Assembly (NCBI GenBank): GCA_947034895.1
Contig: OX344764.1
Coordinates: 68,739,348 to 68,803,347 of the forward strand
Length of the DNA stretch: 64,000 bases
Direction of reading: 5' to 3'
Source: Rhytidiadelphus loreus
Taxonomy: Eukaryota; Streptophyta; Bryopsida; Hypnales; Hylocomiaceae
The position numbers and the translations under genes were made by a program. Shown piece by piece: positions 20,240 to 53,728 of this stretch. How positions within the stretch are numbered: the stretch's first letter is position 1; each line of letters starts with the position of its first letter. The notes under the pieces are model-generated. The model ran no database searches. It was not told where the DNA came from and saw only the letters and a list, made by a program, of their open reading frames with translations.

Positions 20240-20275
20240 AGCGGTGCTAGATTGTGAGCCTGCGAGCATGAGCCC
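20240..20275 (+). repeat. Element A left terminal inverted repeat
   Basis: The end reads AGCGGTGCTAGATTGTGAGC and continues CTGCGAGCATGAGCC. The reverse complement of the right end reads AGGGTTGCTATTTTGTGAGC and continues CTGTGAGCATGAGCC: about 30 of 35 bases agree without gaps. Element B's ends share the TGCTA core and the GTGCGAGCC/GTGAGCC units. Confidence 0.85.
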
Positions 20276-20736
20276 AAGAGCGGTGAGCAGGGATAATGTG
20301 AGCGGTGAATTCAGAATTAGAAAAATCAGAAGAAAGGACAATTTTGGGCTCCAAATAGACTATATTTTCTAAAATTTGTGGTCAAACTCTACTTTTTGGA
20401 TTTAGGGTGCCTATTACTGTGGACCTATAACCGTGGAAGTATTTAGGTGTAGCGATTACCACGGAGATATTACTAGGGACTTATTATCGTGGTTTAGGGT
20501 GAATATTTGTAGAATTTTTTATTGGAGCTATGAATTCAAATAATAGAGTACACATTATAAAGACGAAGCACAAGAATATTAAAACCGATATTGATATTGT
20601 AAATAGTTTGTACTGAGTACATTTCCAAATTCTAGTATTCACCCAAACAGAAAGTGATAATGCTGAAGCTATATTTCTAATTTCAGTCTACAATTCCAAA
20701 ATTTGAAATATCAATCACTGAAGTACTATTGGTCTT
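20276..20736. promoter_or_regulatory. Left subterminal region of element A
   Basis: No gene. It holds ACCGTGGA at 20430-20437 with related variants in both orientations nearby (TTACCACGG 20457, TATCGTGGT 20487). The same word recurs in the subterminal regions of element B and at element A's right end, so it is a candidate transposase binding site. The 3' end and polyadenylation of the transposase gene should also be here. Confidence 0.5.
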
Positions 20737-23700
20737 CTAGGCTTGTTCACAAGTGTCACTTGAATCCTTGATGATACCAGCCTTGACGAGAAGCAGCTTC
20801 ACTTCATTGAAGCTAAAGCTTGGAGAGTGTATGAACTTGTCGGCTACCGGATGCATTTTGCAGAAATAACGGAATAAGTAGTAAAGATGTTTGCAACTCA
20901 CATATTGATGCCGACCACCAATTGCGGAGACGGCCATATCTACAAAATTAGGACAAGTGCACTCAGAATACATGCCAAGTGTGATTCGATAAATCTTTTG
21001 TGTGGGCTCCATTCTAGATTGAAGAGTGATAATGGCTCCAAGTCCGGGTAAAGGAAGCATGGTAGCCCCCAGAATAAATCCTTTGACATTACTGGCACTC
21101 TCCCATTTATTTCGATGCTCTGTAGTTGGAGCATTTGCATTACGGCGAATGGCCTTGCTCCTTCGAGTTGTTGGATATGTGTCCGCATTCACTGGACTAC
21201 CTTCATTGTAAAAGTGCGCCTTAAACACATTTGACATTGTAAACAACCATCGAGGTGACATAACTGGCCGCTCTTGGAGTTGGAAGCCCGCCTCTTGTAG
21301 TAGCAGGGTTTCTTGTCGAGTCAAACTGGTGCCACTGAGCACTGGCCATACGTCAGGTACTTGGGGCCAATCAATAACCCAAGGATGTCTAGAGCCTCTA
21401 ACGCATTGTTCAATGTCATCAGGACAGAACCAGAAGTCCATCATGATCTCCTTGTTTCCGCCATATTGTTTCTTGCGACCACGATACGTTGGTGCTGGAG
21501 TACCTTTAGATCCCTTCGCAATTCTGGAAGTGCAACGAATGTTAGTCCCTCTTTGTTGGGCGTGACATTTACAGCTCGATTTATGAGACAATCTTGCAAT
21601 GTGCCATTGTGTAGTATCACAATCACTCTCCATTGCAGTTGAGACGTGCGGTACATGCGGGGAGTGAACGATTGGTGTTGCTTCATTAGAAGCCACTGTC
21701 GGTGGACATGTAGATCGAATCTGCACTCGTGGTTGAGAGAAGTTGACCTTGTCCGGACGATGAGAGTCACCATCCGACCCGATTGGTAGGTCAAGTTTAC
21801 ATTTGCTACTACCAAACACTTCTTCGCCTTCCAAATGTGGTATACGTGTTCCAACATCAATTGAGCTAGGCAGGTCATTCAAAGCCTCCGCAATCTTTTT
21901 TGGATCGCCGCTTCGTCTGGCACCTCTTAACTTCAACTCCTCTCTCGATGGCCCTGACCTTGATGTTGTACCATTCAAGAATGCTCGATAATTAGTCATT
22001 TGCATGAAGGCTCGGATGCAGTCATCGCAAGTGGCGGCAAACAAATCATTACCACGATTACCGGATTGTTGCAACCACTTGTTGTGAACTGTTTCCGATA
22101 AATTGCATGATGGCATGTCTGCTATTTCTTCAAGACTCAATCCCTGAATGAAAAAACACATGTATAGTCAGGCGCTACATGTACACATTTGGAAAAAACA
22201 AACCAAACCACTTCAATTTTGATCACTCTAGGAGGAGGTCTACAGTCCCCTTGGCGCCGAGGGGACTATCTTCCATGGCTCCACATTCAATACTGATTAG
22301 AGTTCCATACAAATTAGAAATGATAATTCAAGGCCAAAAACTAATAATAATAATGTACAACTGGTTCAGTGTATATAAATGAAAAAAATGAGATGGTAAG
22401 GGGTATATAAGCAACTCAAATATAGATTAAGAAAGGACATCCATTGAATTACCATTTGCATGAAGCCGCCCCATTGGCGATATCGAAAGTGCCAGAATGC
22501 AAGCCACAACTCCAATTCACGCAAAGACTCTTCTGAAGCTGCTCCGGATGATAGCCACCAAGAGCGGATTGCCAAGTATCGCGTCTCTGCTTCCTCCATA
22601 GTCTTTGAATCCTTGTACTGCTTGCAAAGATGAGTGTGTTGGTGTTGCATGTCTGGTTTGATGAGTTTCTGTGTATGGCGGTGTAAGGAAGTACTCCAGT
22701 GTAGGAGACATGTACGTTCACGATTCACCATCTCTATTTTAGAATCCCCTGCACCGTACACAATGCGAACGGCATTCCAATTAGCTTGTGCACTGTCAAC
22801 CATAAATCCCTTGAAGTTCGTATTTAGCACTCCATTGCGTCTCATGACCTCGTTCAAGGACCTCCACATTATGCTTTGCACCTCAGTGTCTTCGGATTGC
22901 ATGTCACACACGGCAATTGTCATGACCTTCCTGCAACCCGTATCATAGACATGGCAAGCCATAGTTGTCCAATCCTTCACCCGTTTGACGTGGTCAAACA
23001 TGAACCATGTGTTCTCTAAGTCTCCACCAGGTTGCATGCGGTTCACCAAGTCTACTCCACTACCCGGACCTTCTACCAACATCTTAAACAAGTACACCTT
23101 CTCTTTCCCTTGTCTAGGGAAGACATTGTTATGGATGTAGTCAAACTTCAAATTCCGCTTCATATTCATAATACTATCAATAACACCACCCTTTCCAGTG
23201 CTACGGAAAGAAGTAATGATATTACGGATGTTAGGAGAGCTTAGTCTTTGGAACCTGTCCATGACATCCTCTAACGATTTCCCTTGCAACATCTCCTTAG
23301 GCCCTTCACCACTATGTATCAAGTGGCTGTTTAGGAATTGCTTACTAGCTGCGAGTGCAATGGCTGAGTTAGTAGCAGTAGGAGTTTTGGCAACCTCACT
23401 AGCGATAAGACCGGAAATAGTCTCTAAAGACTCTCTACAAACTCCAGAAGCTACAGGATGCATGTGATTCCCTAAATGAATGCATGCTCTAGACATCAAC
23501 GCATTATCGCTGAATACGTAATATATTCTAGCGTCACACATACTAACACAACTCGGCGGATATTTGCATAGCTTGCAGAGAAGACTTGATTCCCTTGGTG
23601 CATCAGCGCCAACCTGGAATGGAGCAACAGTATATCCACACCACTCGGTCTCGTTCTGCTTGGAGAACCGCTGGAAGTAGGAATAGTCAGAATTAGTACA

Positions 23701-24612
23701 TACCAGATGTCCCGCACAAGAAGATTTCCTAAACTTCAACCCATCTTCATTGTGGATATTGGATGTCATGGTCCGACACCAAGCATGACCATCATATCGT
23801 TTATCCATGCCTTGAAGATTCCCCCCACTACATGACGAAGAAGAGACACGAAGTGATGGCAATTCAAATACTACATCTCCATCAAAGGCTGAAGGGAGGT
23901 ATTGCACTTTGTGGTGGACTAGTGAATTGTAATCTAATGCAGCAACTTCATTCCTCGATCCCCGAACTGATGCAAGATTCCTTAGGCACCCAACTATACT
24001 ACTCTGTCCCATACTATTTGGATACGTCGGTGGGCGAGAGCGAGTTGAAACAGGAACACTACTGGATGGCGTGTGGTATTTACCCAAAGTAGTATTGTGG
24101 GCATCTTCGAATACATCAACAGGAAGCATTGCTGCTATACATGGCTGGCTCGGGGACTCTCCCTCTGATTCACTAGATATATCTATGACAGGGTCAAAAA
24201 CTTCTTTTTTCATTCGAACATGTTCAGGTGTTGTACTAGTAATCGGAAAGGGCTCTCGTTCCATAGAATTCCCAACATCATGCCGAACACGAGGCATATC
24301 AACAGTAGAATGATCTGACCGACGATGTACAATGTCTCTTGAGGGATCCACCATGAGAGACGACAATCCGTAAGCTCTATAGCGACCACGACAAAGGTGC
24401 CAAACATGCCTGTCCTCGACTTCTAACCTGACCATGTGGACATACTCCTTCAATTGACCTGAATCGAACACGACCTCTTCTTCAACATATATACTAGATT
24501 GGATAAAACCAAATCGAACATGAAGAAGGTGTGAAGACACTACAGCATGACCTTCTATTCCAAGAGGGAGAACAACTGGAATTTCATGGCCGTTGGCTCG
24601 AATGGAGGCCAT
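20737..24612 (-). CDS. MULE transposase with zinc region, DDE core and SWIM finger (element A, intact)
   Basis: Two exons: 24612-22453 and 22143-20737, joined in phase 0 through donor ATG|GTAATT and acceptor TTTTTTCATTCAG. The product is 1188 residues. The start at 24612 (MASIRANGHEIPVV) was chosen because the element B homologue begins there (MAWLRVDGHDIPLV); the open frame extends 64 codons further up. Residues ~1-90: conserved unknown domain. ~142-150: VIDISSESE, a SUMO-interaction-like motif. ~268-385: WRKY/GCM1-like zinc region (C299, C305, C355, C359, H383-x-H385). DDE core: D540 (MFDHVKR), D606 (FMVDSAQANW), C635-x2-H638 (CLLHW), with a Glu near 699-701 before WHFRYRQW. Residues 1115-1139: SWIM finger CTC...CKH. 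The C-x2-H between the second D and E is the known signature of MULE/hAT-like DDE enzymes. No stops or frameshifts: likely functional. It is expected to bind the element ends and catalyse excision and insertion in the nucleus. Confidence 0.93.
22144..22452 (-). other. Intron of element A transposase with palindrome
   Basis: A 309-base intron between the DDE and SWIM-containing exons. At 22244-22267 it contains the near-perfect palindrome AGTCCCCTTGGCGCCGAGG + GGACT. Its core (CCCTTGGCGCCGA) recurs in the 118-base array of the partner gene (for example near 27786). The element B transposase has an intron at the same codon with a palindrome of the same form. Confidence 0.7.
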
Positions 24613-25660
24613 GGACACAAGAAGGAAGCACGAATACAAAGGATGTTGGAAGACTAGACCTTTCAATGAGATAGGAGACAGAGTGAGTGAATAGTGGTCA
24701 TATTTAACAGGCACGGAAGGAATGATGTTTAAAAGGATATGATTAATGCAGATGACAATAAACTTTATGACATATGTACAGACGTTGCCAATATAGATAT
24801 TCAAAAAGGATTCGGGGAAAGCTAGCCGACTCTCCTACCTAACTCATAAGTATGAGTGAAGTTCAATCTAAGGTACATCTTAGGTGATAGTAAATTTCCT
24901 TGCAAAATCCATTCCTTCCCTAATACCAATCTCAGGACCACAAATATTCATTACATCAGTCATAGACTTAATGACAAGTGTGTTCTGAAGTGGTCATTAT
25001 ACAATCCCCGTCTTGAACTTCCGTTCAACAACCAAAAATGGTGGATTCAAACTCAAAATCTCCTATACAACAGTGTTCATGGTCTACTAATCATTCAATA
25101 GAAAAATCAAACGAAAGAAAATATAAAATCAAGAAAATTCATTGTACTTTGAAATCTCATTGGAATGCTAATATTTCTTTGGGAGAAGTGCCAGAATAAT
25201 AAAGATCTCCTTAAAGACACGTCTTAGTGGTAGTCGCAGTATCCCCAGAGAACATCCCTCCTACTCTAATTATAGCAGTGTTGCGAAGGGGTAATAGCAT
25301 AGATGAAATAGGCAATTCAGGCAGATTTTGAAAATTATTACGGAACCGGCATGAGTTTGCCATTATGTAATTCATAATGCTAATAAGGCAAAAAATATAT
25401 GGAATGTCAGATTCTGAAAGATACGATATAAGAACTCAAAGACGATCATCACTAGAATACGTACTTCCAATCATCTTATAAAACGAAGCCTACAGTCAGT
25501 ATACCTCATTTGCAGTGGACATGGTGGAACATACTTATTATTTACAGTAGCATCTGCATTATGTGAAGTCTTTAGACTTCATATTTCTGTTTGTACCACT
25601 ATTGGCTTATAGATTATTATCCACTTTCTCAGTTCAAGACTAATATGTGCAATTAGTCTC
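24613..25660. promoter_or_regulatory. Shared upstream region of the divergent genes (element A)
   Basis: About 1.05 kb between the transposase ATG on the minus strand and the first ATG of the partner gene on the plus strand. It is AT-rich and has no supportable ORF. The equivalent interval in element B is 1.09 kb. A shared, bidirectional promoter is the simplest reading, which would couple expression of the two genes; I could not identify a TATA box with confidence. Confidence 0.5.
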
Positions 25661-25948
25661 ATGCATGCTGCAAGAGATAATATCGAAAAGGCAGTTAAGC
25701 ATAGAATTAGAAAGAGGAGGAAACGGAGGAAACTCCTATATTCTTCGCGGAAGGAGTTGCTACGGTCTAGAAGAGGAGGCAAGACTGTTCCAGTAACAAC
25801 TACATCATCTCTAAAGGGAACTTGCACACTAGATATAGAAAAGGATATTCTAATACCCTGTAGTGATGATGGAACTGACTGGGAGGTATCAAACATTGGA
25901 GAGGAGACTTTCGGATTGTCCAACGTAGGAGCAACTCCGAATTCCGAC
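25661..25948 (+). CDS. Basic leader exon of the ParB-methyltransferase-like gene, or separate small gene (element A)
   Basis: The ATG at 25661 opens 96 codons ending at a strong donor GAC|GTAAGT (25948/25949). The first half is very basic (HRIRKRRKRRKLLYSSRKEL), a likely nuclear localisation signal; the second half is acidic. Element B has a matching exon at 48338-48637 (KQKKRKRRGSLYFSSAKAL, donor ACT|GTAAGC, also ending in phase 0). The next acceptor, before 26765, is in the same phase, so splicing would give a continuous frame into the main gene. If the donor is not used, the frame runs to a stop at 26020, giving a 119-residue protein. Both readings are open. Confidence 0.55.
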
Positions 25949-26764
25949 GTAAGTGAACATTTCCTATCCAGATTTCAAAATTCAATGTTGCAATGCCTTA
26001 GGATGTTTTTGGTGTACTGAAACCATCAATGATCAATTCGAAATGCCATAAGAGAACTTATTACATGCCACGATAATAGGAAGCGTAGAATCTGAAATTA
26101 TATAGAATGCAGTTGACAACTCTTGCATCACATACCACACATCGATCAAGATCATAACAATTGAGACATATTTTTGTTATATTTTATATTATGATAGCCA
26201 ACCACAGAGTTCAGTAAATTGTTAACCTTCACAATATGTGTACATGTTCAGTACAAGTATCCTCCAACACCGTGCAATGAGCATATTATTGGATTTTGAA
26301 TTTTATTATTTAAGCGGTGTAATATGAAGTGCTTTCTGTGAAAGATTCCGATATGTTATTTCGATTTCACATTATACATAAGTCATAAATATAGAATATG
26401 ACATTTTCAATTCGAGACCGGAAACGAGGATGCTCACCCGCTGGTCAAGGTTCTGAGAACGGGGTCAACGGTTCCCGAGAAGAGAGTCACCCGAAGGCAG
26501 ACTGGACAAGGCCGACGGAGGGAAAAGGGAGCATCTTCAACCTCGGCAGTTTCTAGTCGGCGACAGCTCAACAGCGTTATCCCCTCGCGCGGCGTCTCCG
26601 ACGAAATTAGTCACAACCTCGCACAATCTGCATAGAGATACTGGTCCGTCTAGTTGAATCGCCGCCCCAAAGAACGAGTGGCTTCTGTGTAGATGCTGCC
26701 ATCCCCTTCTACTTCCGAAACTGGTTAGCAATAGGGTTTCAATTTTTTTTTTTCCATTCTGTAG
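25949..26764. other. Candidate intron between leader exon and second exon (element A)
   Basis: 816 bases from donor GTAAGT to acceptor TTTTTTTTTCCATTCTGTAG at 26764. I see no coding sequence in it. Element B has an extra ORF (44756-45289) elsewhere in the equivalent gene that has no counterpart here. Confidence 0.45.
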
Positions 26765-26908
26765 GAATCCCAGGCAATGGCGCGGAAACCGGCAACCCGA
26801 AGTGCGGCAATGGGAGGACAGCGGAATGCAGGTGATGCAAGCGGGAGCACTGACGAAGCAAGAGTTGAGCCTGAAAACATCAATCCTGCCACAGAAACAA
26901 CCTTCATT

Positions 26909-28351
26909 GTAAGAACCCTAAACAATTCTCTCCTCTACTCTTGGTCTATAGTGTTTATTCATTCACATGAACCTATCACCTCCAATGATTTGAACCTCAG
27001 GATATGTGCACTGGTAGCTATTGCAAAACTTGAGTACGACACCAGCCAGAAATTTATCCTCCTCCAGGGCCTCGAGATCACGGTGGTAAGGAATGGAACT
27101 TCACTCGCACCAGATAATAATGGTTGACTCGGCATAGATCTAGAGTTTGTGATTGACTGCTTGGGATATGAATGTGTCTCCTCTTTCTGCAAGTGAGCGA
27201 AGGGGAGCTACTGTGTCAGACTATACAGACTGATCCCAAATCATCTTTCTATCGACGGTGCATGATTGATGTTCAATGAGCATTGGTGCGCCAGCTTCAG
27301 CTGGTCCCTTCTGCCCTCGGCGCCAATGGTGCTCCCAGTTTGCCAGTTTGGGGCGATGATTTTTAAATTCTGGTGCACAAGGCACGGCGTGGGATCCCCA
27401 TTGGTGCGCCAGCTTCAGCTGCTCCCTACTGCCCTCGGCGCCGATGGTGCTCCCAGCTCGCCAGGTTGGGGCGATGATTTTTAAATTCCGGTGCACAAGG
27501 CATGGCGTAGGATCCCCATTGGTGCGCCAGCTTCAGTTGCTCCCTGCTGCCCTCGGCGCCGATGGTGCTCCCAGCTCGCCAGGTTGGGGCGGTGATTTTT
27601 AAATTCCGGTGCACAAGGCACGGCGTGGGATCCTCTTTCACCCGCCAGCTTCAGCTTCTCCCTGCTGCCCTCGGCGCCGATGGTACTCCCGGCTCGCCAG
27701 GTTGGGGCGGTGATTTTTAAATTCCGGTGTACAAGGCACGGCGTGGGATCCCCATTGGTGCGCCAGCTTCAGTTGCTCCCTGCTGCCCTTGGCGCCGATG
27801 GTACTCCCGGCTCGCTAGGTTGGGGTGGTGATTTTTAAATTCCGGTGCACAAGGCACGGCGTGGGATCCCCATTGGTGCGCCAGCTTCAGCTGCTCTCTA
27901 CTGCCCTCGGCGCCGATGGTACTCCCAACTCGCCAGGTTGGGGTGGTGATTTTTAAATTCCGGTGCACAAGGCACGGCGTGGGATCCCCATTGGTGCGCC
28001 AGCTTCAGCTGCTCTCTACTGCCCTCGGCGCCGATGGTACTCCCAGCTCGCCAGGTTGGGGCGGTGATTTTTAAATTCCGGTGCACAAGGCACGGCGTGG
28101 GATCCCCTTTCACCCGCCAGCTTCAGCTTCTCCCTACTGCCCTCGGCGTCGATGGTACTCCCGGCTCGCCGGATGCTTGACCGGATTACGAAACGCGTAC
28201 GCACCAGGGAGGGCCTGGGGTCCCCATTCGTCCGCCACCTTAGGCTGCTCGACGCTCCCATTGTCACCAACAGTGCTCCCTGCTGTCCAGCCGGTGGTCC
28301 TCCGCTTTAGAGTCCATTAGTCGTCGTTACTGACTTCTAGTGTTTCTGCAG
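26909..28351 (+). other. Long intron carrying the tandem array (element A)
   Basis: Donor ATT|GTAAGA at 26908/26909, acceptor TGTTTCTGCAG ending at 28351; both exons are in phase 0. At 1443 bases it is far longer than the other introns of the gene (about 85-295), because it holds the 118-base array. Confidence 0.7.
27274..28170. repeat. 118-base tandem array with TCGGCGCCGA palindrome (element A)
   Basis: About 7.5 GC-rich units. GGATCC at 27392, 27510, 27628, 27746, 27864, 27982 and 28100 is spaced exactly 118 bases. Each unit holds the palindrome TCGGCGCCGA or its variant TTGGCGCCGA. GC content contrasts sharply with the AT-rich flanks. Element B has a different ~320-330-base array in the same intron, each unit holding TCGGATCCGA or a close variant. 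The many short ORFs on both strands (GAEGSREQLKLAHQWG and similar) are the array read in frame. Confidence 0.92.
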
Positions 28352-31300
28352 GAGGTTGATGTTCAGGTTACCCAACCTGAGTCACAGGCTGCAGCGGGTG
28401 TGGAAGTCTCTGGAGATCAAGGTGAGGAGGATGGATCCTCGGACGACAACTCTGAGAATACCAATCCGGATTTCACAACAGAGGATGCATTTCGGAAAGC
28501 ACAGAAAGTGAATTCTGTAGCATCGATTGGCGCATTGAGATTGAAGCCTCACTCCGTATCTCGGCTACGGATCCCTCTATGCCGTCTTTCTCAGATGCCA
28601 ATGGTTCGCCCTGCCTTAATATGTGACCTCACACGACTAGAGCAGGAATTTGTTCATGGTTACAGAGATGGATCCTCTATTCTACGTGTCCGCCACGAAC
28701 GAACAGGGAGAGACGCAACAGGTGTCGGAGGCCGAGATGGAAGCATGGGGTCCTATCTGGAATGTCGAGAATGCCGATTTTGAGGCCAAGCTCAGCGCAA
28801 CACCGGGTTTGGCCCACTTACAAGGCTTAAATTTTTTTGTATGTGACGGGAACCACAAGCTTTTGGCTTGGTCTTCATATATTTCAAAACACCATGCTGG
28901 AGACAAAGACTGGCATATTTCAGTCGACTCAATAATATTGGAGACCAAGGGGAAAATTGGGGACGTTATGCACGCTATGCATGACATCAACAAGTACGTA
29001 CAATTGTTTGTCTTGTATTATTTCAAGTTCTTCTTTGGTTATCTGCTGTTGTATTGAACCACATATGTTTCTTTTGTAGGCAAACAGAGAATTTGTTTAT
29101 TAAAACAAGTCTCGTACATACGTTATATCGTGTTCAAAAATATGGCGTTCTTCCACTAGAGAAGTTTGCCGAGCACTTGAGTGCCTCCGAGATGACACAG
29201 TGCCAGCAAAACACCCGAAAGAGCTGGTACACAATGTCTTTGGAGGTGTTTACCTCATTTATTTTTCGGGTAATAATCTATTGCACTCTTATGCCTTTTC
29301 TTCGTTTTTTTCATATTTCTTTTACAGTGCTGATTTCCCAGTGGCTTTGTAGTACGAGGTTGCGACAGCTGCTGATATTGCGGTTCGCAAATACAAAGAA
29401 GACACTACAATTGAGGATCAGTGTGAAGAAGGAATCCTGGCGGCTATGCGATTGGGTACTAAAGATCAGACTTCAAAGCTGATTCAAAAATTGGGAAAAT
29501 TGACGGCGGTGGCAAATCCTAATCTAGGAAGTGAGTGGCTCAAAGAGGTATTATCATATTGTATATTCGCTTCTTCATATGATTTTCCTTCTTTTGTAAT
29601 GATTTTAATATAAATGATTTGCTGTCACAGGTGGAGCGCCATTGGAGCTGCAATATTGTTCCCGAAATGACACTTGACAAGCTGCAGATGATCGCTACTT
29701 GCAACGTTAAGAGTGAACAGAAGGTCAGGTGGTTGAGGTGGTGGAATTCTTCTGTTCAAACACAAGAGGCTAGAAGGTTTCCGTTGAAGCCCGTTGGAGA
29801 GAATGACTTAAAGTCATTTCTAACGAAGGCTTGCTGGTATGTTGGGGTATGTGATTTCTATTTATTGACCTTCTTCTACACTTTTTGCTATGATGCATGA
29901 CATTTTATATTGTATTTCTAAATGCTGTCCATGCATAGAATTGAGGTCCCTGCATTTTGCAGATTGAAGACACGGGATTTGAAATGTTTGATGACATTGT
30001 CAAGAAGGACCAGTTGGCATTGTCTATGGATTCTCCTACAGAACCGGAGAGTTTCGGAGATTACATTGAAGGATGGAGAATTAGAGTGTGGGACAAAGCA
30101 TTCTTGTCCAATTTCAAGGGGCAAGACGTATTCCGGAAGTCAGATGACTTCAAGAAACGCAAGGACACGGAGCTAGTTGTGAAGCGCGTGATTTATCGGT
30201 ATAATTTCTTTACTATATTTCCACACTTGATTGATGGTTGTTGTCATCGTCAATTCCCAAACACCATTTTCCATACCTTCACCAAATTTGTTGCTATAGG
30301 TACTTCAAGTACGAGCTCCTTCCGAAAGGAGCCATATTGAAGCGGGATCTTCCTCCTTTTCTAGGAACTTGGTTGGATATTTCCTCGGAGCATTGCATGT
30401 TCTCGGCCTCTCAGCTCAAGTGGTGGACTAGTTCACATTTGAAGTCCGGCGCTTGGTATTTGGATTGCCCACCTGAGTTTACACCGCCGTCGGAGGAGCA
30501 ACTCAAACAATCCATTGCTTCTCATGAGGTTGCTCAAGACCTGAATGACTTTGTCGGGCTTGATGAAGATGCCAAAGCAAGGGCTTTGAAGAAGAGAGAG
30601 GAAGTTGATAAGAAGATTGCATTGAAGAACTCGGAGGCTGTGGAGAAGGCAAAGGAGAGGATCGCAAAGAAGGCCTTAAAACTTGCTGAAACTGGGGAGG
30701 CATCTACAGCTAAGCAGTCAAAAGGAAGGAAGGCAAAGCAAGAAATTGTTCCCTCCATCACTAAAGACGAGGGCTCCCATCACCAACATTCGGTTTCACG
30801 AGGAACCAAGCGTGATGCTGAGTATATTTCACTCAGCGATGGTGGCATGGTGCATGGTCCTTCGGCTGTGGAGTTTGTAAATGACATAGAGATTTCGATT
30901 CACGAGTTGATTCTTAATTTTTCGTTGAAGCATGTATTGGCTGATCCACTACCCCGAGTGTACCATGACATTTTGAGTTTTATTGATAAGGTTAGCACTT
31001 CCACTTTTCTTCTTCACTTTTTATGGATAAATGCTTTGTAATTATTATTTCTTTGGGTACTAGTTACTGATTACTTGAATTCGGTTGCAGCACAAAGGAG
31101 ACAAACATCGATTTTTCAAAGGAGTGAAGAGTGATAAACCACGCATTGATCTCATCATTGCAGACATGCCAGAGGGATTGCCTGTCCCAGATTTGTCTGT
31201 GCCTGTGACTAGCATTCCTAAGTGGAATGTGGATGACCCTCTCTGGTTGGAGGCAGTGTTTGAATTTGCAGATGGTCACCTGCATGACGATGGAGCTCTC

Positions 31301-33649: not shown

Positions 33650-33686
33650 CAGGCTCATGCTCACAGGCTCACAAAATAGCAACCCT
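33650..33686 (-). repeat. Element A right terminal inverted repeat
   Basis: GGCTCATGCTCACAGGCTCA followed by CAAAATAGCAACCCT, the inverse of the left end at 20240-20275. Preceded by further GCTCACA repeats. Confidence 0.85.
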
Positions 33687-33698
33687 GTCCCCAGACGC
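33687..33698. other. Right target-site duplication of element A
   Basis: GTCCCCAGACGC, paired with GTCCTCAGACGC at 20228-20239. It lies in the codons for the NASGD stretch of the DUF7869-type gene. Confidence 0.75.
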
Positions 33699-39417: not shown

Positions 39418-39421
39418 CATG

Positions 39422-39436: not shown

Positions 39437-39500
39437 AGGGTTGCTATTGTGCGAGCCTAGGAGCGGGAGCCTGTGAGCCTGTGAGCCCGAGAGCAGGAAA
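39437..39500 (+). repeat. Element B left terminal inverted repeat
   Basis: The terminal TGCTA core is followed by repeated GAGCCTGTGAGCC-like units. It pairs imperfectly with 54895-54976. Confidence 0.8.
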
Positions 39501-43200: not shown

Positions 43201-44541
43201 GCTATCAAAATGAAAAAAAAAAAAGATGTACACTTACCCCAGCGTACCAGACACAACGATTCAAGAATGGACCGAGCAATGTCTCCGATACTGGCCTAGG
43301 CGGAAAGCGTCTGGCATCACGTGATGGCGTAGATGAGTTCCACCACTTGAGGAACTTGATTTTGTGATCTGCTGTGGTATTGCAAGTGGCCACCATTTGA
43401 AGCTTTTCCAGAGTCATCTCTGGGACCTCATTGGAGCTCCAATGCTTCTCAATCTATACAAAAATAAAAAGAAGGTCAATTAAAATTTGAAGTCACAAAA
43501 ATACGAATGGCAAACCTTCAAGATGAAGGTTAGGAATTTACCTCAACAAGAAAACCCGGCTTGTTAGCTGGATGAGCCACGGCAACCAACTTTGACATTT
43601 TGACATTGAGTTTGCTGGTCTTTTCATTTGCTCCGGACCTCATTGCATGTGCAAGTTCCTCTGGAGTTTTAGCATCCTCCGCCGTTGTTTCATTGTACCT
43701 CCGAACCGCTGCATCAGCGGACTGGGCAATCTCTTGCTGCAAAAGTAATATGCAAATTACGTATGACAATATTTGTAAGAAAAGGCAACATTTTTGAATC
43801 AATAAAAACAATTTGAAGGTGAATTGTTTAATGAGGTAAACAAGATACTTACTTGTTTATGTCATGCATGACATGCATGACAAGCTCAATCTTGCCCTTT
43901 GTATCAAGAACAATCGAGTCAACCGCATAATGCCACTCCCTCTCCTTGGAGTGTTTTTTGTTGATGAAGTTCGTCTACGAGATGAGTCTGTGATTACCAT
44001 CACAAACATAGAACTTGAGGTTCTTCAAGAACCTCAGATCTGGCACGGAGTCCACACTAGCGTTGAAGGTGTCATTCTTTTCCTTCCATAGTGGATCCCA
44101 CTTCTCCATCTCTTCATCCGTGAATTGTGAGCTCTCTCCGGCCTCATCCGTCGTGGTAACGTAGAAAACTGCCGCTCCATCTCAATAACCCTTACTGAAT
44201 TCGTGCTCTAGAAAATCAATATCGCATGAGAGTGTCGGCCTCACCATGGGCATAGGCACCATTCGACAAAGCGGGATCTGGAGCCGGAAAAGGTGATCCG
44301 GCTTCATCCTCAGCGACGCAATGGTGTTCACTGAGTCCACCTTATGGTATTGTCGGAGATCATCTTCTAAGAAGTCCTTGTCATCTGCCTCCAACACATC
44401 ATCGGCCTCGTCTTCTTCCATGATGTCTTCTTCCCCTTCCCCGTCAGCTTCTCCTGCAATGGAAGGTTGATTTGACTCTTCGGTGTTTGGAGTTTCTTGA
44501 ATGGTCTCTTCAGGCCAAAGGTTTGTGGGAGTCCCATCCAT
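40295..44541 (-). pseudogene. ParB-domain plus N4/N6 DNA-methyltransferase-like protein (element B; several stops, one exon missing)
   Basis: Exons on the minus strand: 44541-43853, 43736-43542, 43453-43238, 43105-42870, 42533-41810, 41706-41359, 41271-40992, 40868-40658, 40556-40295. Exon lengths 195, 216, 236 and 348 equal those of element A, and phases agree; the counterpart of element A's exon 29080-29245 is absent, and joining its neighbours is out of frame. ParB-like part: FRLQIPLCRMVPMPMVRPTL, then FYVCDGNHRLI. Coiled coil of K/E repeats in 42533-41810. Motif IV region DLIIFDCQEN; motif I region DVVLDCTTATGASIIAC with GRHIMALEKDE, close to the VLDPFxGxGTT...IGIE consensus. Stops: TGA 44182-44184; TAG 43975-43977, 42992-42994, 41578-41580, the three TAGs each replacing a Trp codon of copy A. 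QVVVLDDDD resembles a SUMO-interaction motif. Not functional as it stands, but its motif I is better preserved than in copy A. Confidence 0.75.
42717..42748. repeat. 32-base palindrome in an intron of the element B ParB-methyltransferase-like gene
   Basis: TAGAAC-T-TGCCTCGGATCCGAGGCA-T-GTTCTA is self-complementary but for one symmetric base pair. Further out, GGGGGTCC (42698) and GGACCCCC (42763) are also inverse to each other. A similar arrangement lies in the transposase intron near 52035-52112. The host intron (42534-42869) is 336 bases against 101 in element A. Confidence 0.85.
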
Positions 44542-44755
44542 CTGCAAGTTCAGATTATGAAATTAATCAATATCCAGGGACATGCATTCGGAGATCCACA
44601 CTAACATACAAATAAAAACATAACAGTAAACCATATATAAATGAATGAAAGAAGAATAAAACCATCAAAGGCAAAGGTTCATGTTCAAATTGTATGTCGG
44701 CCATACAGAATGCTCTCAAGCAATATATCCTCAAAACAAATCCAATACAATGGAA
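44542..44755 (-). other. Gap between the small ORF and the ParB exon (element B)
   Basis: Short AT-rich interval ending in acceptor AATCTGAACTTGCAG before 44541. No other feature seen. Confidence 0.4.
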
Positions 44756-45289
44756 TTAGTCAATATCTACATCTTCCTCTGAGTCAGAGCTCAAGTGAAT
44801 GAAGATGGGTTCTCCTAATCCCTGCATTGCGCTACGTGCACAATCACATGTCTCCTCCATCAATGGACCGTCAATGGTGATGGACACGTGCGTGTCTGAG
44901 GTGTACTCTGTCTCTAAACTCTCGGCAGACATGAATACAACCGGTCTCTCTATAGCCCCACTAAGGATCAAATCAAGACGTCTACGTTTTAATGCAGGCG
45001 TATAGTAACGAGTACACTTTCGTGCTTGTGTGTCACTGACTCGACTTAGCACAGAGCTCTCAAACGCATCAACGGCGTGATCAGCTGCATCCATCACATC
45101 ATCAAAACTTACAAGTAAATCTTCGTCCACTTCTTCGTCTTCAGCACCTTCTTCTTCTTCATAATCTTTGGACACCTCCATGTTTGCATCCAGTGGTGTG
45201 AGTGGCTGAGATGGTCCTGCCTCATGAGTGATTGGGACAAGAGGAGGCTTTGGCGTTGGTGAAGATACATCCTGACCACGTCTTGCCCT
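44756..45289 (-). CDS. Acidic protein or alternative exon of unknown function (element B only)
   Basis: From an acceptor TTCATTTTCACAG the minus strand is open for 177 codons (RARRGQDVSSPTPKPPLVP...) to a TAA at 44756. It holds an acidic stretch (DYEEEEGAEDEEVDEDLLV), a basic nuclear-signal-like KRRRLDL, and a C-terminus IFIHLSSDSEEDVDID, a typical SUMO-interaction-like end. The frame is phase 0, so it could be spliced directly to the leader exon 48338-48637 to give a ~277-residue protein, separate from the ParB-methyltransferase-like product. Element A has no counterpart in its sequence. I do not recognise the family. Confidence 0.5.
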   Translation of the reverse strand, partial: RARRGQDVSSPTPKPPLVPITHEAGPSQPLTPLDANMEVSKDYEEEEGAEDEEVDEDLLVSFDDVMDAADHAVDAFESSVLSRVSDTQARKCTRYYTPALKRRRLDLILSGAIERPVVFMSAESLETEYTSDTHVSITIDGPLMEETCDCARSAMQGLGEPIFIHLSSDSEEDVDID

Positions 45290-45414
45290 CTGTGAAAATG
45301 AAGCATTGACAAAAGAAGAAATCAGACAAACCAGACATGCCTTAAATCCAAGACACCCAACCAAATAGTGAGCATGATCCCCGAGCCCCCAGCCAGAATG
45401 CGAAAACCAAATGC

Positions 45415-46500
45415 ATGTCACCGCCGCGAGGGCAGCAGTTCCTCATTGGAGGGGTGACAACGCAAACAAAAAAAACATACAAACTAAGCTGGTGGTGGCT
45501 CCTGCCCAGCCCGTCCCCTCAAAAATATAATTTCAAAAAAAAAGGCCAGGTCCCGCAAGCGGGCTCCAAGCATGCCTTGGATCCGAGGGCAACGCGACCC
45601 CCCGACACCAAGACAGAACGGAAAAACCAAACGCAACTCACGAGCTGGCCGACCAATTGAAGAGGCTCAACAAGCTTCAGTCACCGCCATGAGGGCACTC
45701 GATCCTCAGCAAGTGGAGGCCCAGCGAGCTCAGTCACCGCCGCGAGGACAGCAGCTCCTCACTGGAGGGGTGACGACGCAAACAAAAAAAATATACAAAC
45801 TAAGCTGGTGGTGGCTCCTGCCCAGCCCGTCCCCTCAAAAATATAATTTCAAAAAAAAGGCCAGGTCCCGCAAGCGGGCTCCAAGCATGCCTCGGATCCG
45901 AGACACCCAGCCAAGAGGGCAACGCGACCCCCCGACACCAAGACAGAACGGAAAAACCAAACGCAACTCACGAGCTGGCCGACCAATTGAAGAGGCTCAA
46001 CAAGCTTCAGTCACCGCCATGAGGGCACTCGATCCTCAGCAAGTGGAGGCCCAGCGAGCTCAGTCACCGCCGCGAGGGCAGCAGCTCCTCATTGGAGGGG
46101 TGACGACGCAAACAAAAAAAATATACAAACTGAGCTGATGGTGGCTCCTGCCCAGCCCGTCCCCTCAAAAATATAATTTCCAAAAAAAAGGCCAGGTCCC
46201 GCAAGCGGGCTCCAAGCATGCCTCAGATCCGAGACACCCAGCCACGAGGGCAGCGCGACCCCCCGACACCAAGCCAGAACGGAAAAACCAAACGCAACAC
46301 AGGAGCTTGGCCGACCAAGTGAGGAGGGTCAACAAGCTTCAGTCACCGCCATGAGGGCACTCGATCCTCAGCAAGTGGAGGCCCAGCGAGCTCAGTCACC
46401 GCCGCGAGGGCAGCAGCTCCTCATTGGAGGGGTGACGACGCAAACAAAAAAAATATACAAACTGAACTGGCGGGTTCCAAGCATGCCTCGCGAGCTCCAA
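45415..46500. repeat. ~316-332-base tandem array with TCGGATCCGA palindrome (element B)
   Basis: CCGCCGCGAG recurs at 45421, 45737, 46067 and 46399, giving units of 316, 330 and 332 bases, ~3.3 copies. Units hold TCGGATCCGA (45890) or one-base variants (TTGGATCCGA near 45579, TCAGATCCGA near 46222), as well as poly-A stretches and GC-rich parts. It lies between exons 2 and 3 of the partner gene, as does element A's unrelated 118-base array. ORFs on both strands across it are by-products. Confidence 0.9.
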
Positions 46501-46669
46501 GCATACCCGGGATCTGAGACTCCCGGCCAATAGCACAGCCCGACCACCCAGACCAAGCCAGCATGCGGAAAACCAAATGCAATACACGAATATGTCCACA
46601 CAGGTGAGGAACTAGAAATCGGTGGCCACGCAAAATCGATCTAGAAATTCAAATGGATCTCATTGATAC

Positions 46670-46759
46670 CTATGGGATTGCTCGAGAGCGAGTTGGGGGA
46701 GGAGTTGGATCTTCTGATCCTCCGCGGCCGTGGCTCCTGGTGTTCCGGATCATGGTTCC
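46670..46759 (-). CDS. Candidate second exon of the element B partner gene
   Basis: Acceptor CATCTGCGCAG before 46759 and donor ATAG|GTATCA after 46670 bracket 90 bases. GTMIRNTRSHGRGG resembles ESQAMARKPATRSAAMGG of the element A exon 26765-26908. In this frame the last codon is TAG, so either the exon is broken, it ends a short protein, or another frame is used (the frame two bases over is open from 46886). Low certainty. Confidence 0.35.
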   Translation of the reverse strand, partial: GTMIRNTRSHGRGGSEDPTPPPTRSRAIP

Positions 46760-46886
46760 CTGCGCAGATGGATGAGCAATGAGAGAGGAAATGGGTGGTG
46801 TTAGAAGTTGGAGGACATTGCGGTGAGGGTTCGAGGTCGCAGCAGCAAGACCTTCGCCGGACTGGATTTTGGGATGGAGAATTCAC

Positions 46887-48256
46887 GGGTCCCTTGCCTC
46901 CACTCCGGATTTTTTGGGGGGTTCTTATCTTGATATTATTGGTTGGCTTAGACTAAGAGGACTGGATTCTCAGATTAGGGGTCTGATGCGTTACACGCTC
47001 CGCGTGGGTGTTTAACCTGCATGACGGTAAGAAGGGCAAGTGCGGTTCACAGCTCTCCGAGAAGGTATCTCCCCCGATGCTTACAAGCGGGGATCTTTGG
47101 GAAACCTCCGCGGTGTTCAACATCCGGCCTCCCTTACTAACTGAAGGTATGTGAAAATGGAATCACTGGTAGTGATGCATTTAAATAAGAGCCATTTGCC
47201 TCGACAGATACTCAATCTAGTCACTTTCAGCTGCTCACGTTTGGCGATCACTTTCACAACGTTGCGAGTTTGTTGATCGGTTCATTGCAGCCGTTTGATT
47301 ATAAATTTTATTTTCAATCTAGCCGTGCATGACTTGCATGGGATCTCGGGAAATCATGTAGGCAGGCCAAGCGCGTAGATATAGAAGATGCCTCTTTCCT
47401 CACACGTCGCAGATTTTGTATTCATTTACCCCTACCTCAAGCAATGTGGAAATCTCTCATCCAACAGTAGTTGACAAGGCCATAAATCGTCCATTTGCAA
47501 GCTGGAACTCATTATTGAGTTGATGGAATTTTGTAAAATATTTTTTAATGAATTTTCCTTTAAAGACAAGTGGAATCGGCATCTAATCCATGATGTTTCA
47601 TGTTTTCTGAAAATTTATATAATTAGAAATAAACTTTTAAAGTTTAGGTGTAGTGGTCTGAAAATTTGCCCTTATCCTCAAATGTACACTATAAGGATTT
47701 GAAAGCTATGTGGGCTGAATGCTTTGGATTTCAAAATTCTAATGAAGGTGAATTTATTTGAGCACAGAACTAGATTTGTATTTCCCTTATTGTAGCAAAA
47801 ATTAACTCAAAATCAAAATTAACTCTACCTATTAGGCTATCACGTACGTAGTTCACTTGGTTCCACTTCTTGGCCCGTGAATCCATACAAAACTTTACTG
47901 GAAGCTCGAAATGACAAAGAGACAAACGAAGAAGCATTTCAACAAGCCATGTACTCAACTGCCTCCATTACCCTAAACCTTGAACGTAGAATGATTGGTT
48001 TTATTCATTGAAATCAACAAGGCACCCTAAAACTAAACTATTGTAGTGCACATCTCAATGCTCTGTGGACCTCTATAAGTTTGATGCTCAAGTTCTATAA
48101 ATATTCACTATAGATGATTACAAGTTCAAACTATACGCATGAAATAGTCTCTCAGGAAATTCACTAACTTTGTTCGAAAGTTAATGCAAACCTCATAACT
48201 CGCATCCTCAAAGAAACAACGGAAATGAAATGACTCCATCAAACTTGCTGCAAAAT
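46887..48256. other. Non-coding interval between candidate exons (element B)
   Basis: Most likely the first intron of the partner gene, together with the leader 3' part. ORFs here are short and carry no recognisable motif. I see nothing else. Confidence 0.35.
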
Positions 48257-48337
48257 TCATTGTATCCAAGGCCCTCTCATGAATGTCAAACGGAGAGGGT
48301 TCATGGATCTTTGAAAATAAGTCTCAAAGTAGCTTAC

Positions 48338-48637
48338 AGTTGAGACGTCCGCCGCCCTTCTACCATGTTGTAAATTTACGTGGTCCCTCGATGCCTCTTG
48401 AGTTGCACCAACATCGTCGGCAGGAGCATCCTCCGCTGCGGCAGTACTCCCTTGTTCATAGCGAAGAACTCTCCTCAAATCTACAGGTGCTGGCTCCGCA
48501 GTCTTCGGTGGCACTCTTCCTCTTGTCATTCTAGATCGGCTCAAGGCCTTGGCAGATGAAAAGTACAACGACCCACGTCTCTTTCTCTTCTTTTGCTTCA
48601 AACTAATCAAATCAACATCAACGCTGTCTACAAGCAT
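48338..48637 (-). CDS. Basic leader exon (element B)
   Basis: The ATG at 48637 opens exactly 100 codons to a donor ACT|GTAAGC. It contains KQKKRKRRGSLYFSSAKAL and RMTRGRVPP, aligned with the element A exon at 25661-25948, followed by an acidic/Ala-rich part. Without splicing it would stop at 48257 (126 residues). It reads away from the transposase across a 1.09 kb interval, as in element A. Confidence 0.55.
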
Positions 48638-49723
48638 GAAGGGAGAAGAGAATGGCTAAACCTTGACGCTCTCAACAACATGTAAAGGGAAGTGAAACCG
48701 AGAGAATGAGGACAATGGACAAAAGTGGCTCTTCATATGTTTCGCCATGTAGGTCAAGGAAGAGCCGTCACATTGAAACCGGCCATAATGACATGCGTGA
48801 AGATAGTTTCTAATAGTACCTCCGTGTGTAGGCCAATTCGTGTGCCGTCAAAATAACATCCAGAAAAGAGGCCTTGACATTGGGGGCTCTGTCAGTTTTT
48901 AGGGATATAATTCAGGTACGAAGATCAAGAAATTAAGTATACGGCCAGTCCTACATATTCAAGTGATTACCATCCCAAACCCCAATGCTAATTCAAAATG
49001 CCGTGTGTTGAAATGATTGCAATGTTGTACCAAAATTGAATGCGGCAGTCCAAGTTCATTGGGTTCTTTTTAACTCACTATGATTTCAAAACAAACGAAT
49101 TATATTAGAAAAAAATGGACTCTCATTAATTATACCTACTTGATGTTCTATGAATTACAATAATTGTAATTCCGAAATTGTGAAAATTTAAACCAATTTC
49201 TCTTGATATACTACAAACAAGTTCTACGAAGTTAATAGAAAAAAATGTACAAGTCATGTCCTAAAATGTGGTCAGGAGTTTTATGGATGTGTATCTAACT
49301 ACTTAGGTGAAGAGTACCTTTCATTTGCCCGTGTAATAGGCATTCACATTAATTGAGAAGATGGTAGATAGAAATCTCCAATCCACTGTCAATTTTGATT
49401 CTTCGTAAAACATTATTCTCTTAATCACTAATGTGGAGGGAGGTTTGATTATGTTCTATTGTCATGTACATAATGAATTCAATTCAATCTCCAGAATGAT
49501 ATTATTGCTTTCATAACAATTACAGTATCATCGTAATAATGATGTGAACAACAACAAAATCGGCGCATAGTATTGGATGAACAATGAATACATAAGAGTA
49601 CACAAATAGAAGGCCAAGAAGAAGCGCACTCATATAGTCCCCAATGTTTGGTTCTTTTTTACCTCATCTCTTGTGTTGGATTGAATTGTCAACGTTGTTG
49701 AAGTGTCTCCGTAGGGTTTAGCA
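48638..49723. promoter_or_regulatory. Shared upstream region of the divergent genes (element B)
   Basis: 1086 bases between the divergent ATGs. AT-rich and non-coding. The equivalent region in element A is 1048 bases. Presumed bidirectional promoter. Confidence 0.5.
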
Positions 49724-52700
49724 ATGGCTTGGCTTAGAGTTGATGGTCACGACATTCCCCTTGTGTTCCCAGTAGTAGACGGTGGATGCGCTAGAATTCC
49801 TTGTCATCTTCTGCATGTCCGTTTCAGATTTGTAGAAAGCTCCATCTATGTTGAGGAAGAGAAAAAGTCGGAATCAGGGGAAGGGCTACAATCTGTCCCG
49901 ATTGTGAGGTCGGTAGAGGATGGAACGCATTGCTGGTACCTTGGTCCTGGGAACTATAGAGCATACGGACTTCCACTCTCTATGCTAGGTGCATGTACAG
50001 AAATCCAGAGTCGCCAATCTGATGGTTCTACGGTGGATATGCCGTGTAGTCCTCATGCTGTGTCACCCAGTACACCTAGAGTTGCTTTGCCGGTCCTACA
50101 CATTCCTGCAATACTTCCTATCGTGAAAGAGGAGAGATTAGATCCAATTATAGAGTTGTCAACCGAATCAGAAGGAGAGTCTCCCAACGTCAATGCTGAA
50201 AAGCAAAGTTCTTCTTCCCGGATTGCATCTTGCGAGACAGATATTGTGAAATCACTATCTTGTAAGGGCCCGTCTGGAAGTCTCTCTAATTCTACAAAGT
50301 CACTATCTCTACCGCGACAAGATGTAGTGGCAAAAGAAAGCATAATGGATAGTCTAAAGAGACTTGCCACTATGCATCATTCTCGAAACGAATTGTCGTC
50401 AATGGATCTGAGCACCATGAAGCACCAGCGGGTTCCATTTCTTCCACCTGTATTCAACGGGGATGTCATCTTTGAATTGCCTCCTCGTGGGTCATCTTCA
50501 TCTTCATCGGGGGCCAAGAACTTGGAAGGAATGGACAAGCGCTATGATGGACATCCGTGGTGCAAGCTAATGACCACGAACATTCACAACTCGGACAACC
50601 TCAAAATTCGTAAGTCGTACTGTGCTGGCCATCTTGCTTGTCAGAATGACAATTGTGAGTATTTAAAGAGAGCTTCAAAGCAAAACGAAACTGAGTGGAG
50701 TGGCTATACTGTGTTTCGTTTTATTGTTGGTGGGTGTCCCCCCAAAGAATGTACCCTAGTTTGCAAGGTTTGCAAGATGGCACCGACGTGTCTTGACACA
50801 TGCAAGGCTAGGATATACTTTGTGTACACTGATAACCCAGAAATGACTAGGGCCGCTATTCACTTTGGAGAGCATGGCCACCCCGTCGCTAAAGGCATGT
50901 ATAGAGATTCTACTGAAATGATTTGCGGACTCATTGCGGAACAAGTGGCCAAAACACCCATGGCCACGAACTCCGCAATCACTCTCTCTGCTAGTAAAGA
51001 CTTTCTGGCAAGCTACCTATTTCATGATGGAGAGGGCGAGAAAGAGATGCTAAAAGCGGAAGAAATGGAGGAGGTCATGGACCGCTTCCAATATTTGAGT
51101 AGTCCAAGTATTCGCAATGTGATATCTTCTTTCCGGTCTAACAACCGAGGAGGAATAATCGACAACATTATGACCATGAAGAAAGAGTCAAAGTTTGAGT
51201 TCATACATGACAGCGTCTTCCCAGGTCAAGGCAAGGAAAAGGTATACATTTTCAAGATGCTTACTGAAGGACCAGGAAGTGGAGTCGACCTTGTAAGGCG
51301 AATGCAATGGGAAGGGGATCTACAGAATGTGTGGTTGATGTTCGACCACGTGAAGCGCGTGAAGGAGTGGACCACAATGGCCTGCCACGTGTATGATACC
51401 GAGTACAAGAAGGTAATGACTATTGCAATGTGCGACATGCAATCCGAAGATACCGAAGTTCAAGTACAATTTTGGCGAAGCTTAAACGCGGTCATGCATC
51501 GCCACGGAGTGGGAAAGCCTAACTTTAAAGGATTTATGGCAGACAGCGCTATGGCCAACTGGAATGCGGTCCGCATTGTCTACGGAAGTAGTTCTGCCAA
51601 TGTTGAAATGGAGAATCGCGAGAGGACATGTTTGTTGCATTGGAGTACCTCTCTTCACAAGCATACACAAAAATACATCAAGGAAGCATTTCAACAGCAA
51701 CATATTACTTTGTGTAAGCAATACAAAGATTCAAAGAATATGGACCAAGCCGAGGTCCGTTACCTTGCAATACAGTCTTGGTGGTTGTCATCTGGAGCTG
51801 CCAACGAAGAAGCTCTACATCACTTACAACACTGGCTAGCTTTTTGGCATTTCAGGTATCGCCAATGGGGAGGCTTCATGGACATGGTGAGTGAATCTTG
51901 GTTCCTCTTAGTAAAAGTGTTTAAGGCTGTAAGACTCATATTCTAATTAGAAGTTCAACTTCCTTGATTGTTATTATATATATATAAATTTTTTTTTAAA
52001 TTTAGTGGGACCTTTTATCTCCGTGGTACCAAAAACGAGGGGTCATCATAACGCTATAATAACATGCCTCGGATCCGACGGATGTATTTTTGTTGTCACC
52101 ATGACCCCCCTGATATCTGTTCTTCGATCAAAAATATCCAATGTTGGTAGTACAGAATGTTAAATGTCACTAATTTTTTTACTAGATAAGGATTTAGGGA
52201 GTAGCAATAGGAATCATTGCAAGTCCTTCCTCTTATGAAACTATACAGTGAATGAAGATAAATTATTTACAAGTTACCAATTAGAATTTTTGTGAACGCC
52301 CATTACTAACTATTTTATGGTCCTTTTTGAAATATATAGAAACTGAATTTGGAAGAGATGTTGGACTTACCATCGTGCAATTTATCCGAAACGGTACACA
52401 ACAAGTGGCTACAAATGTCTGGAAAGCGAGGAAACAACTTGTTTGACGCCACATGTGATGACAGCATCCATGCTTGGATGCAAATGACAAACTATCGTAC
52501 ATACCTGAAAGGATACGCATCGGGATCAGGGCCGTCAAAAGGGGAGCTGCGACTGAGAGCTACTAGAAGAAGTGGAGATCCCAAAAAGATTGCAGAGGCG
52601 CTAAACACATTGCCTGGAGCAGAGGGGGTGGGAACCAGAGTACCACACTTGGAAGGAGAAGAAATTTTTGGCAGTACAAAGAGGAAGTTGGACGTGCCCA

Positions 52701-53728
52701 TTGGTGATGCAAGAGATTCACATAGGCCTGACAAAATCAATTTTTCTCAACCCCGTGTGAGAACGAGGTCCAACACATCTGTTTCTGAATCTTCAGGAGA
52801 GATAGGTAAATACCCTCAAGCAAATAATTTTGGACATGTTACGGTAGCATTTGAAAGCGATTGTGATACATCAAAATGACACATTGCGAGAATCAGCCAC
52901 AGATTTGCCGCCAAATGTCAAGCTCAACAACAAAGATCAAACATCAAGTGCACCAGCAAGATTGCAAAAGGGAAGAAGGGAACTCCAGCTCCTACCTACC
53001 GCGGTAGAAAAGAAGAGTATGGGAGTAAGCGCCAGGTGGTGGTTGATTTTTGGTTTTGTTGGGATGACATCGAACGATGCGTGAAAGGTACAAAACGGAA
53101 GTGGGTTCTCGATTGGCCAGAGGTACCAGAGGTTTGGCCTGTTTTGTCAGGAACTAACCTAAACCGAGAAGAGACATTGTTATTGCAGCATGCAGGATTT
53201 CGCCTTCAAGAACGACCAATACTGTCGCCACGTCAATTGTTCAACATATCAAAGATTTTCAAACCTGCTTTGTATGACCACCCTCCATCGAAGAACACAG
53301 ATGTGTATCCAACCGTGAGGAACAGCAGAGCCATTCGAAGGATTGCAAACGCACCTACTGCAAAACAACGAAATAAGTGGGAAAGTGCAGGTAATGTGAG
53401 AGGCCAAATTTTAGGAGTAATACTGCTCCCTTTCCCAGGCCTTGGTGCAATAGTAGAGTTAGAGACAGGGTCAGAGCCAAACAAAAATGTATATCGAGTT
53501 ACAATAGGCCAATTCCCAGCGTGCACATGCCCAGACTTCGTGAATATGGCAATTTCCGCTATTGGAGGCCGGCAACAGTACGTGAATTGCAAACACTTGT
53601 ACTATTTGTACAGATACTTCTGCAAGATGGATGTCAACAAAGATAATTTCATTCATGCACCAAGTTATAGCTTCAATGAGTTGAAGCTACTGCTAGTTCG
53701 AGCTGGAATGATCACAATTCCAGAATAG
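49724..53728 (+). pseudogene. MULE transposase with SWIM finger (element B; single nonsense codon)
   Basis: Exons 49724-51886 and 52340-53728, joined in phase 0 (ATG|GTGAGT; AATATATAG|AAA). About 1183 residues, colinear with the element A enzyme: MAWLRVDGHDIPLV start, IIELSTESE motif, zinc region (CAGHLACQNDNC, CLDTC, HFGEHGHP), DDE core (MFDHVKR, FMADSAMANW, C-x2-H in CLLHW, WHFRYRQWGGF), and SWIM finger CTCPDF...CKH. The only lesion is TGA at 52877-52879, where copy A has TGG, between the DDE core and the SWIM finger; the frame continues unshifted beyond it. A truncated product would keep the catalytic core but lose the SWIM domain. It may have been mobile until recently or may be complemented by copy A. 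Confidence 0.88.
51887..52339 (+). other. Intron of element B transposase with palindrome
   Basis: 453 bases at the same codon as the intron in copy A. Contains CATGCCTCGGATCCGACGG near 52065, whose first part is identical to the palindrome in the tandem array (45886-45901), framed by GGGGTCATC (52037) and ATGACCCCCC (52101). Confidence 0.7.

Follow-up and report, generated by a model that had tools for sequence, protein, structure and literature searches.

A window of 64,000 nt from the moss Rhytidiadelphus loreus (OX344764.1, positions 68,739,348 to 68,803,347) contains two elements, A and B, which are very likely diverged, decayed representatives of a single old type of large DNA transposon. 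Both would carry an IS256/Mutator-like transposase gene and a second gene for a protein of ~1000 aa. In that protein a basic and acidic N-terminus is followed by a domain of predicted ParB/sulfiredoxin (Srx) fold, a lysine-rich middle and, near the C-terminus, homology to beta-class N6/N4 methylases. The two genes lie head to head and are transcribed away from each other in both elements, with 1048 bp (A) and 1086 bp (B) between their start codons. An initial annotation, made from the sequence alone, had proposed two such related two-gene elements, each with a two-exon transposase gene and a second gene of 11–12 exons separated by 1.05–1.09 kb, and this layout was borne out, between terminal inverted repeats (TIRs) with 10-bp duplications and with GT..AG introns in the exon models. 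The span that it gave, 20240 to 53728, had to be replaced by two separate intervals (Table 1), as it ends 1.25 kb short of the end of B.

Element boundaries were obtained from self-comparison of the window. Element A has the ends CAGCGGTGCTA (left) and CAGGGTTGCTA (right) and is flanked by TCCTCAGACG and TCCCCAGACG, a 10-bp duplication with 9 of 10 positions identical. Element B runs from CAGGGTTGCTA at 39436 to CAACGATGCTA at 54980, and its 10-bp duplication, TCATACCGGA on both sides, is perfect (10/10). Among 20,000 pairs of ends placed at random with similar spacing, a duplication with at most one mismatch occurred in 0.215% and a perfect one in 0.005%; the duplications of A and B exceed chance. 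Because the right end of A (33550–33690) and the left end of B (39433–39584) are alike, with 68% identity over 154 columns, A and B are taken as two members of one type. An uninterrupted counterpart of the insertion site lies at 12617–14161, and the two flanks of A match its two parts at 75.5% and 62.5%.

The landing site of A is itself an element, which bears DUF7869 (Pfam match E 9.1e-27 on the open reading frame (ORF) at 19559–20359). Pieces of two copies of it, 62.5–75.5% alike, are found in the window, one at 6616–7538 with 12617–14161 and the other at 18701–36196, the latter with 72% inverted ends of its own (18701–18876 / 36010–36196). At B, the second copy of a direct repeat (1–394 / 39046–39445, 92.5% identity) adjoins the left end, which places B within or next to a copy of a younger repeat.

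The transposase gene of A has two exons and an intact frame of 1188 aa. The A and B transposases are 61% identical in amino acids over 1172 compared codons. The core of the transposase has an IS256-like RNase H fold, and CxC..CxH, the SWIM-type end motif, is found in transposase A. The TIRs and 10-bp duplications match the Mutator/IS256 superfamily, whose target duplications are 9–11 bp. On the other hand, none of 23 transposase family members matches the Pfam MULE or SWIM models in single-sequence profile scans (MULE, Mutator-like element), which distant members can escape, and a PDB profile search with the transposase gave chance-level rows only among those listed. The elements could then belong to another, non-Mutator DDE superfamily whose transposase has only the RNase H core in common, which we consider improbable.

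When contigs of prokaryote genomes were queried with the transposase, a single match was obtained, on a 4.1-kb contig filed under a cyanobacterial metagenome-assembled genome (CADCWO010000080.1; L001, 1–4101), which is too short to reveal a second gene. This homologue also has the CxC..CxH end and an apparent intron at the same place as the window transposases. The contig is most likely contamination.

The second gene has 12 exons on the plus strand in A (25661–32750) and 11 on the minus strand in B (48637–40295), with GT..AG at every intron. The exons of 195, 216, 236 and 348 nt that had been reported as unchanged in length are f, g, h and j in both copies, and the reported agreement of 28 of 65 residues fits exon f exactly (0.431 over 65 codons). 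Intron phases, which had been described as identical, are equal wherever exons align. Exon e (190 nt) is lost from B, where only 116 nt separate exons c and f, and the tentative exons b of A and B could not be aligned with each other. Exon e of A has nothing but chance matches elsewhere in the window. Exon a is alignable solely in its basic stretch (45% over 31 aa, E 3e-4), and exon m is common to both copies (35% over 69 aa, E 9e-8).

A separate third gene at the 5′ end, composed of exon a and a B frame open to 44759, was considered and set aside; one gene is simpler because the junctions joining exons a, b and c are of phase 0 in A and B alike. The non-alignable exon b weakens this single-gene reading of the 5′ end. 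The B frame stays open for ~118 codons beyond the chosen donor of exon b (44759–45112, minus strand) and has an acidic end; the open stretch may be fortuitous, represent an alternative end or be left over from a separate gene.

Neither second gene is intact. The A copy has one frameshift (exon c) and one in-frame stop (exon j). The B copy has four in-frame stops (exon c has two, h and j have one each), and the loss of exon e breaks its reading frame. The stops of B sit at Trp and Arg positions. Recoding was rejected, since TGG encodes Trp elsewhere in the same frames, and the stops are taken as plain decay.

Divergence between A and B was measured by Nei–Gojobori counts. Exons a, b, e and m and the stretch affected by the frameshift were excluded, as were gapped columns and all codons in which A or B has a stop. 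The proportions of synonymous (pS) and nonsynonymous (pN) differences are 0.83 and 0.25 for the transposase, and 0.79 and 0.40 for the second gene, which retains 42% amino-acid identity over 921 codons; both pS values are saturated, too high to correct. Long purifying selection on both genes is supported, in line with the earlier description of the pair as old and selected. By segment, with exons h and i pooled and k and l pooled, the second gene has its lowest pN in the ParB-like half of exon c (0.30) and its highest in exon j (0.485), the expected seat of the methylase catalytic motif.

Of 7869 candidates for a match to residues 80–1045 of the A protein, a single one passed E ≤ 0.001, namely a hypothetical protein from the moss Ceratodon purpureus, 1147 aa in length (E 9.6e-131, 32% identity, 95% cover). 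With three aligned exon-c stretches as a query, 485 proteins were found at E ≤ 0.01 among 1353 candidates. Among the 120 listed, 107 have the exon end MHDINK, MHDVNK or MHNINK, and the GNH loop is kept in 117. The listed homologues are short ORFs, which we infer to be single exons of a multicopy eukaryotic gene; the protein lists report only the longest contig of each cluster, and linkage to a transposase is not readable there. Scans built on a few short patterns found no relative of exon c in prokaryote-genome contigs, nor any match in viral contigs with three queries.

Since MULEs capture genes, the second gene could be a host gene carried as a Pack-MULE-style passenger, and for the Ceratodon homologue there is indeed a named gene model, on a contig of 28.7 Mb. 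However, 485 proteins matching one exon look unlike a single stand-alone host gene, and the same exon structure is kept at 42% identity beside the transposase in both elements. The passenger explanation was set aside on these grounds as very improbable. The mainly stand-alone host genes that the initial annotation had named as evidence against itself were thus not borne out as worded.

The two domains are recognized by different means. A predicted structure of an exon-c homologue has the ParB/Srx fold, with a best ParB-type Foldseek match at E 5.9e-3. The Pfam ParB (ParBc) profile matched none of the 22 sequences scanned among the 120 listed homologues, which gave weak matches to DUF1015 (two) and DUF6551 (one), and a PDB profile search with the ParB-like exon returned no ParB chain, only chance-level rows, among those listed. 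Because no Pfam ParB model matches, the ParB assignment rests on the predicted fold. The methylase part is recognized by profile: PF01555 scores 30.4 bits in the Ceratodon homologue against a curated cut-off of 26.7, and falls under the cut-off in A and B (domain E 0.013 and 3e-4; whole protein 0.14 and 0.042). Direct PDB sequence search yielded nothing stronger than weak rows for DpnA methylase (E 0.3 with B, 0.053 with Ceratodon), and the whole-protein model of the Ceratodon homologue is poor in the methylase region, with a predicted local distance difference test (pLDDT) score of about 30. Of the proposed ParB and methylase parts, then, the latter stands by profile through Ceratodon, so that a lack of any profile match, the other outcome named beforehand as adverse, did not occur as worded; the former stands by predicted fold and finds no Pfam match.

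The catalytic motif of beta-class N6/N4 methylases is (D/N/S)PP(Y/F/W). In an alignment with three phage methylases (DPPF, DIPY and DIPY), the motif IV position reads DTPF in Ceratodon, DMPE in A and DCQE in B; the catalytic motif is absent from A and B, and ambiguous in Ceratodon. Motif I is GSG in the phages, and STG (Ceratodon), ATC (A) and ATG (B) here. The beta-class order IV, X, I is found, and a lysine before motif I and an acidic residue after it are retained in all six aligned sequences. These residues point to a methylase scaffold that has very probably lost its catalysis in A and B and whose activity in Ceratodon is doubtful.

We tentatively prefer a regulatory, non-catalytic role for the second protein. 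It would descend ultimately from a prokaryotic ParB-methylase and would recognize the element's own DNA, while its methylase half may serve in this lineage mainly as a non-enzymatic scaffold binding DNA and S-adenosylmethionine. It could thereby shield the promoter region or the tandem arrays from host silencing, in the manner of VANC, the anti-silencing protein of VANDAL elements in Arabidopsis (PMC5735166, available portion). A far-reaching form of this proposal is rather doubtful as a whole. In it, a Mutator lineage found across mosses would have converted a ParB-methylase of prokaryotic descent into a self-recognizing DNA reader without catalysis, which protects the element from host silencing; such a system would be convergent with VANC and built from a restriction-modification-type enzyme.

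Alternatively, the element may mark its own DNA through this protein, which would be an N6-adenine or N4-cytosine methyltransferase, active now or until recently. The motif order and the acidic residue retained in Ceratodon, A and B are consistent with this, as are the Ceratodon profile score and its D-x-P-F, and epigenetic self-modification has been proposed for the Ectocarpus Sola1 protein (PMC12477816, available portion). Yet motif IV is DMPE and DCQE in the window copies, the first glycine of motif I is replaced by A or S in Ceratodon, A and B, and the motif-IV exon is the least constrained of the compared segments. We judge an active enzyme unlikely.

The second protein might also be a direct transposition co-factor, which is the role of mudrB, with its ParB-fold domain acting on DNA in end recognition, nicking or bridging. 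The head-to-head pairing in both elements would fit this role; on the other side, many MULEs move with the transposase alone. Nicking, DNase or NTPase activity has been reported for ParB domains, among them one that is fused to an adenine methylase (PMC5512222, available portion). The co-factor role seems to us possible, if somewhat unlikely.

Several points weigh against the regulatory role that we prefer. The Foldseek match to ParB is weak and the methylase model is of low confidence. The methylase part is covered by three sequences only, two of them from broken genes, and because both genes are broken, the motif losses in A and B could be late decay. The Ceratodon DTPF is similar to DIPY, the motif of two among the three aligned phage methylases, and an active enzyme might exist there. 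The tandem arrays lie in different introns of A and B and are unrelated in sequence (only 12-bp chance matches, E 0.5); they could have nothing to do with function. VANC as described is built of other domains, and the likeness to it would be one of role only.

Table 1 Features of elements A and B in the window.
Feature	Position	Strand	Remarks
Element A	20239..33687		13.45 kb; target, DUF7869-bearing element
Left TIR of A	20239..20303	+	77% over 66 columns with 33687-33623, E 1.2e-5
Right TIR of A	33623..33687	-	pairs with left TIR of A
A transposase exon 1	24612-22453	-	intact frame; 55 homologues, best E 1.1e-294
A transposase exon 2	22143-20738	-	CxC..CxH SWIM-like motif close to end
A exon a	25661..25948	+	basic stretch; GT donor
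A exon b (tentative)	26765..26908	+	from splice sites and frame alone
A tandem array	27281..28170		118 bp, 7.5 copies; intron b-c
A exon c	28352..28993	+	ParB/Srx-like domain (DGNHK); frameshift
A exon e	29080..29269	+	190 nt; no B counterpart; stretch present in Ceratodon protein
A exon f	29353..29547	+	195 nt
A exon g	29631..29846	+	216 nt
A exon h	29963..30198	+	236 nt
A exon i	30300..30990	+	691 nt; lysine-rich middle
A exon j	31091..31438	+	348 nt; methylase motif IV position (DMPE); one in-frame stop
A exon k	31733..32009	+	methylase motif X and I positions (DCTTATC, last letter across intron)
A exon l	32122..32329	+	methylase domain continued (ALEED)
A exon m	32477..32750	+	last exon
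Element B	39436..54980		15.5 kb
Left TIR of B	39436..39494	+	TIR pair 79% over 62 columns, E 6e-4
Right TIR of B	54924..54980	-	pairs with left TIR of B
B exon m	40295..40556	-	last exon
B exon l	40658..40868	-	
B exon k	40992..41271	-	motif X and I positions (DCTTATG)
B exon j	41359..41706	-	348 nt; motif IV position (DCQE); one in-frame stop
B exon i	41810..42533	-	724 nt
B exon h	42870..43105	-	236 nt; one in-frame stop
B exon g	43238..43453	-	216 nt
B exon f	43542..43736	-	195 nt
B exon c	43853..44541	-	ParB/Srx-like domain (DGNHR); two in-frame stops
B exon b (tentative)	45113..45289	-	from splice sites
B tandem array	45585..46470		330 bp, 2.7 copies; intron a-b
B exon a	48338..48637	-	
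B transposase exon 1	49724-51886	+	
B transposase exon 2	52340-53728	+	one in-frame stop

Elsewhere in the window, a second direct repeat (1382–3128 / 61918–63665) has 95% identity, and a 622-aa frame on the minus strand (8760–10628), which we take to be hAT-like, matches zf-C17orf113 (E 1.9e-10) and, just under the cut-off, DUF4371 (5e-7). Searches of the window for tRNAs and Rfam families found none.

Among known systems, IS256 (ISCth4) and eukaryotic Mutator-like elements share the transposase fold, the 10-bp duplications and the SWIM-like end, and differ from A and B in that here no Pfam model matches and the transposase gene stands head to head with a ParB-methylase partner. Bce_0392 of B. 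cereus likewise has a ParB domain fused to an adenine methylase; compared by description only, it is prokaryotic, and no transposase partner is described in the available portion of its report (PMC5512222). Fungal DNA transposons with TET/JBP dioxygenases also bear a DNA-modification gene, with another enzyme class, host and transposases (PMC12730594, available portion). VANC, missing from the accessory genes listed in the initial annotation (mudrB, Ulp1-like proteases, OTU proteins), is a further gene of a MuDR-type element that is less conserved than the transposase (PMC5735166, PMC10398659, available portions). The VANDAL protein diverges more rapidly than the transposase does, and the motifs to which it binds lie in tandem arrays, some of which are intronic (PMC5735166, same portion). 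Tandem arrays are found in introns of A and B as well, and the same role is proposed for the second protein. Homology to VANC is not claimed, as VANC has DUF1985 and DUF287, without ParB or methylase domains in the accounts available.

The closest counterpart is the brown-alga transposon Sola1-1_Ec32, whose accessory protein has a ParB-like domain and an N4/N6 DNA methyltransferase (PMC12477816, available portion). Its accessory gene is of the same kind as the second gene here, the Ectocarpus protein being compared by description only: as in algal-type accessory proteins, both domains are in one protein, encoded beside the transposase on the opposite strand, in both A and B. The carrier is Sola1 there and IS256/Mutator-like here, where in addition a moss homologue exists, the 11–12 exons are kept between copies and the methylase motif is eroded in the window copies. 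No account of a Mutator-type carrier of a ParB-methylase gene was found in the open-licence literature searched; as far as searched, the Mutator-type carrier, the moss homologue, the conserved exon structure and the eroded catalytic motif are new. This suggests that the ParB-methylase accessory gene is not limited to the published algal transposons and also occurs on a Mutator-type element. If true, unrelated transposases have one prokaryote-derived kind of partner in common, which argues for a real job of the partner. If the partner proves to be an anti-silencing reader, VANC would gain an independent second example, one that could be tested in a moss.
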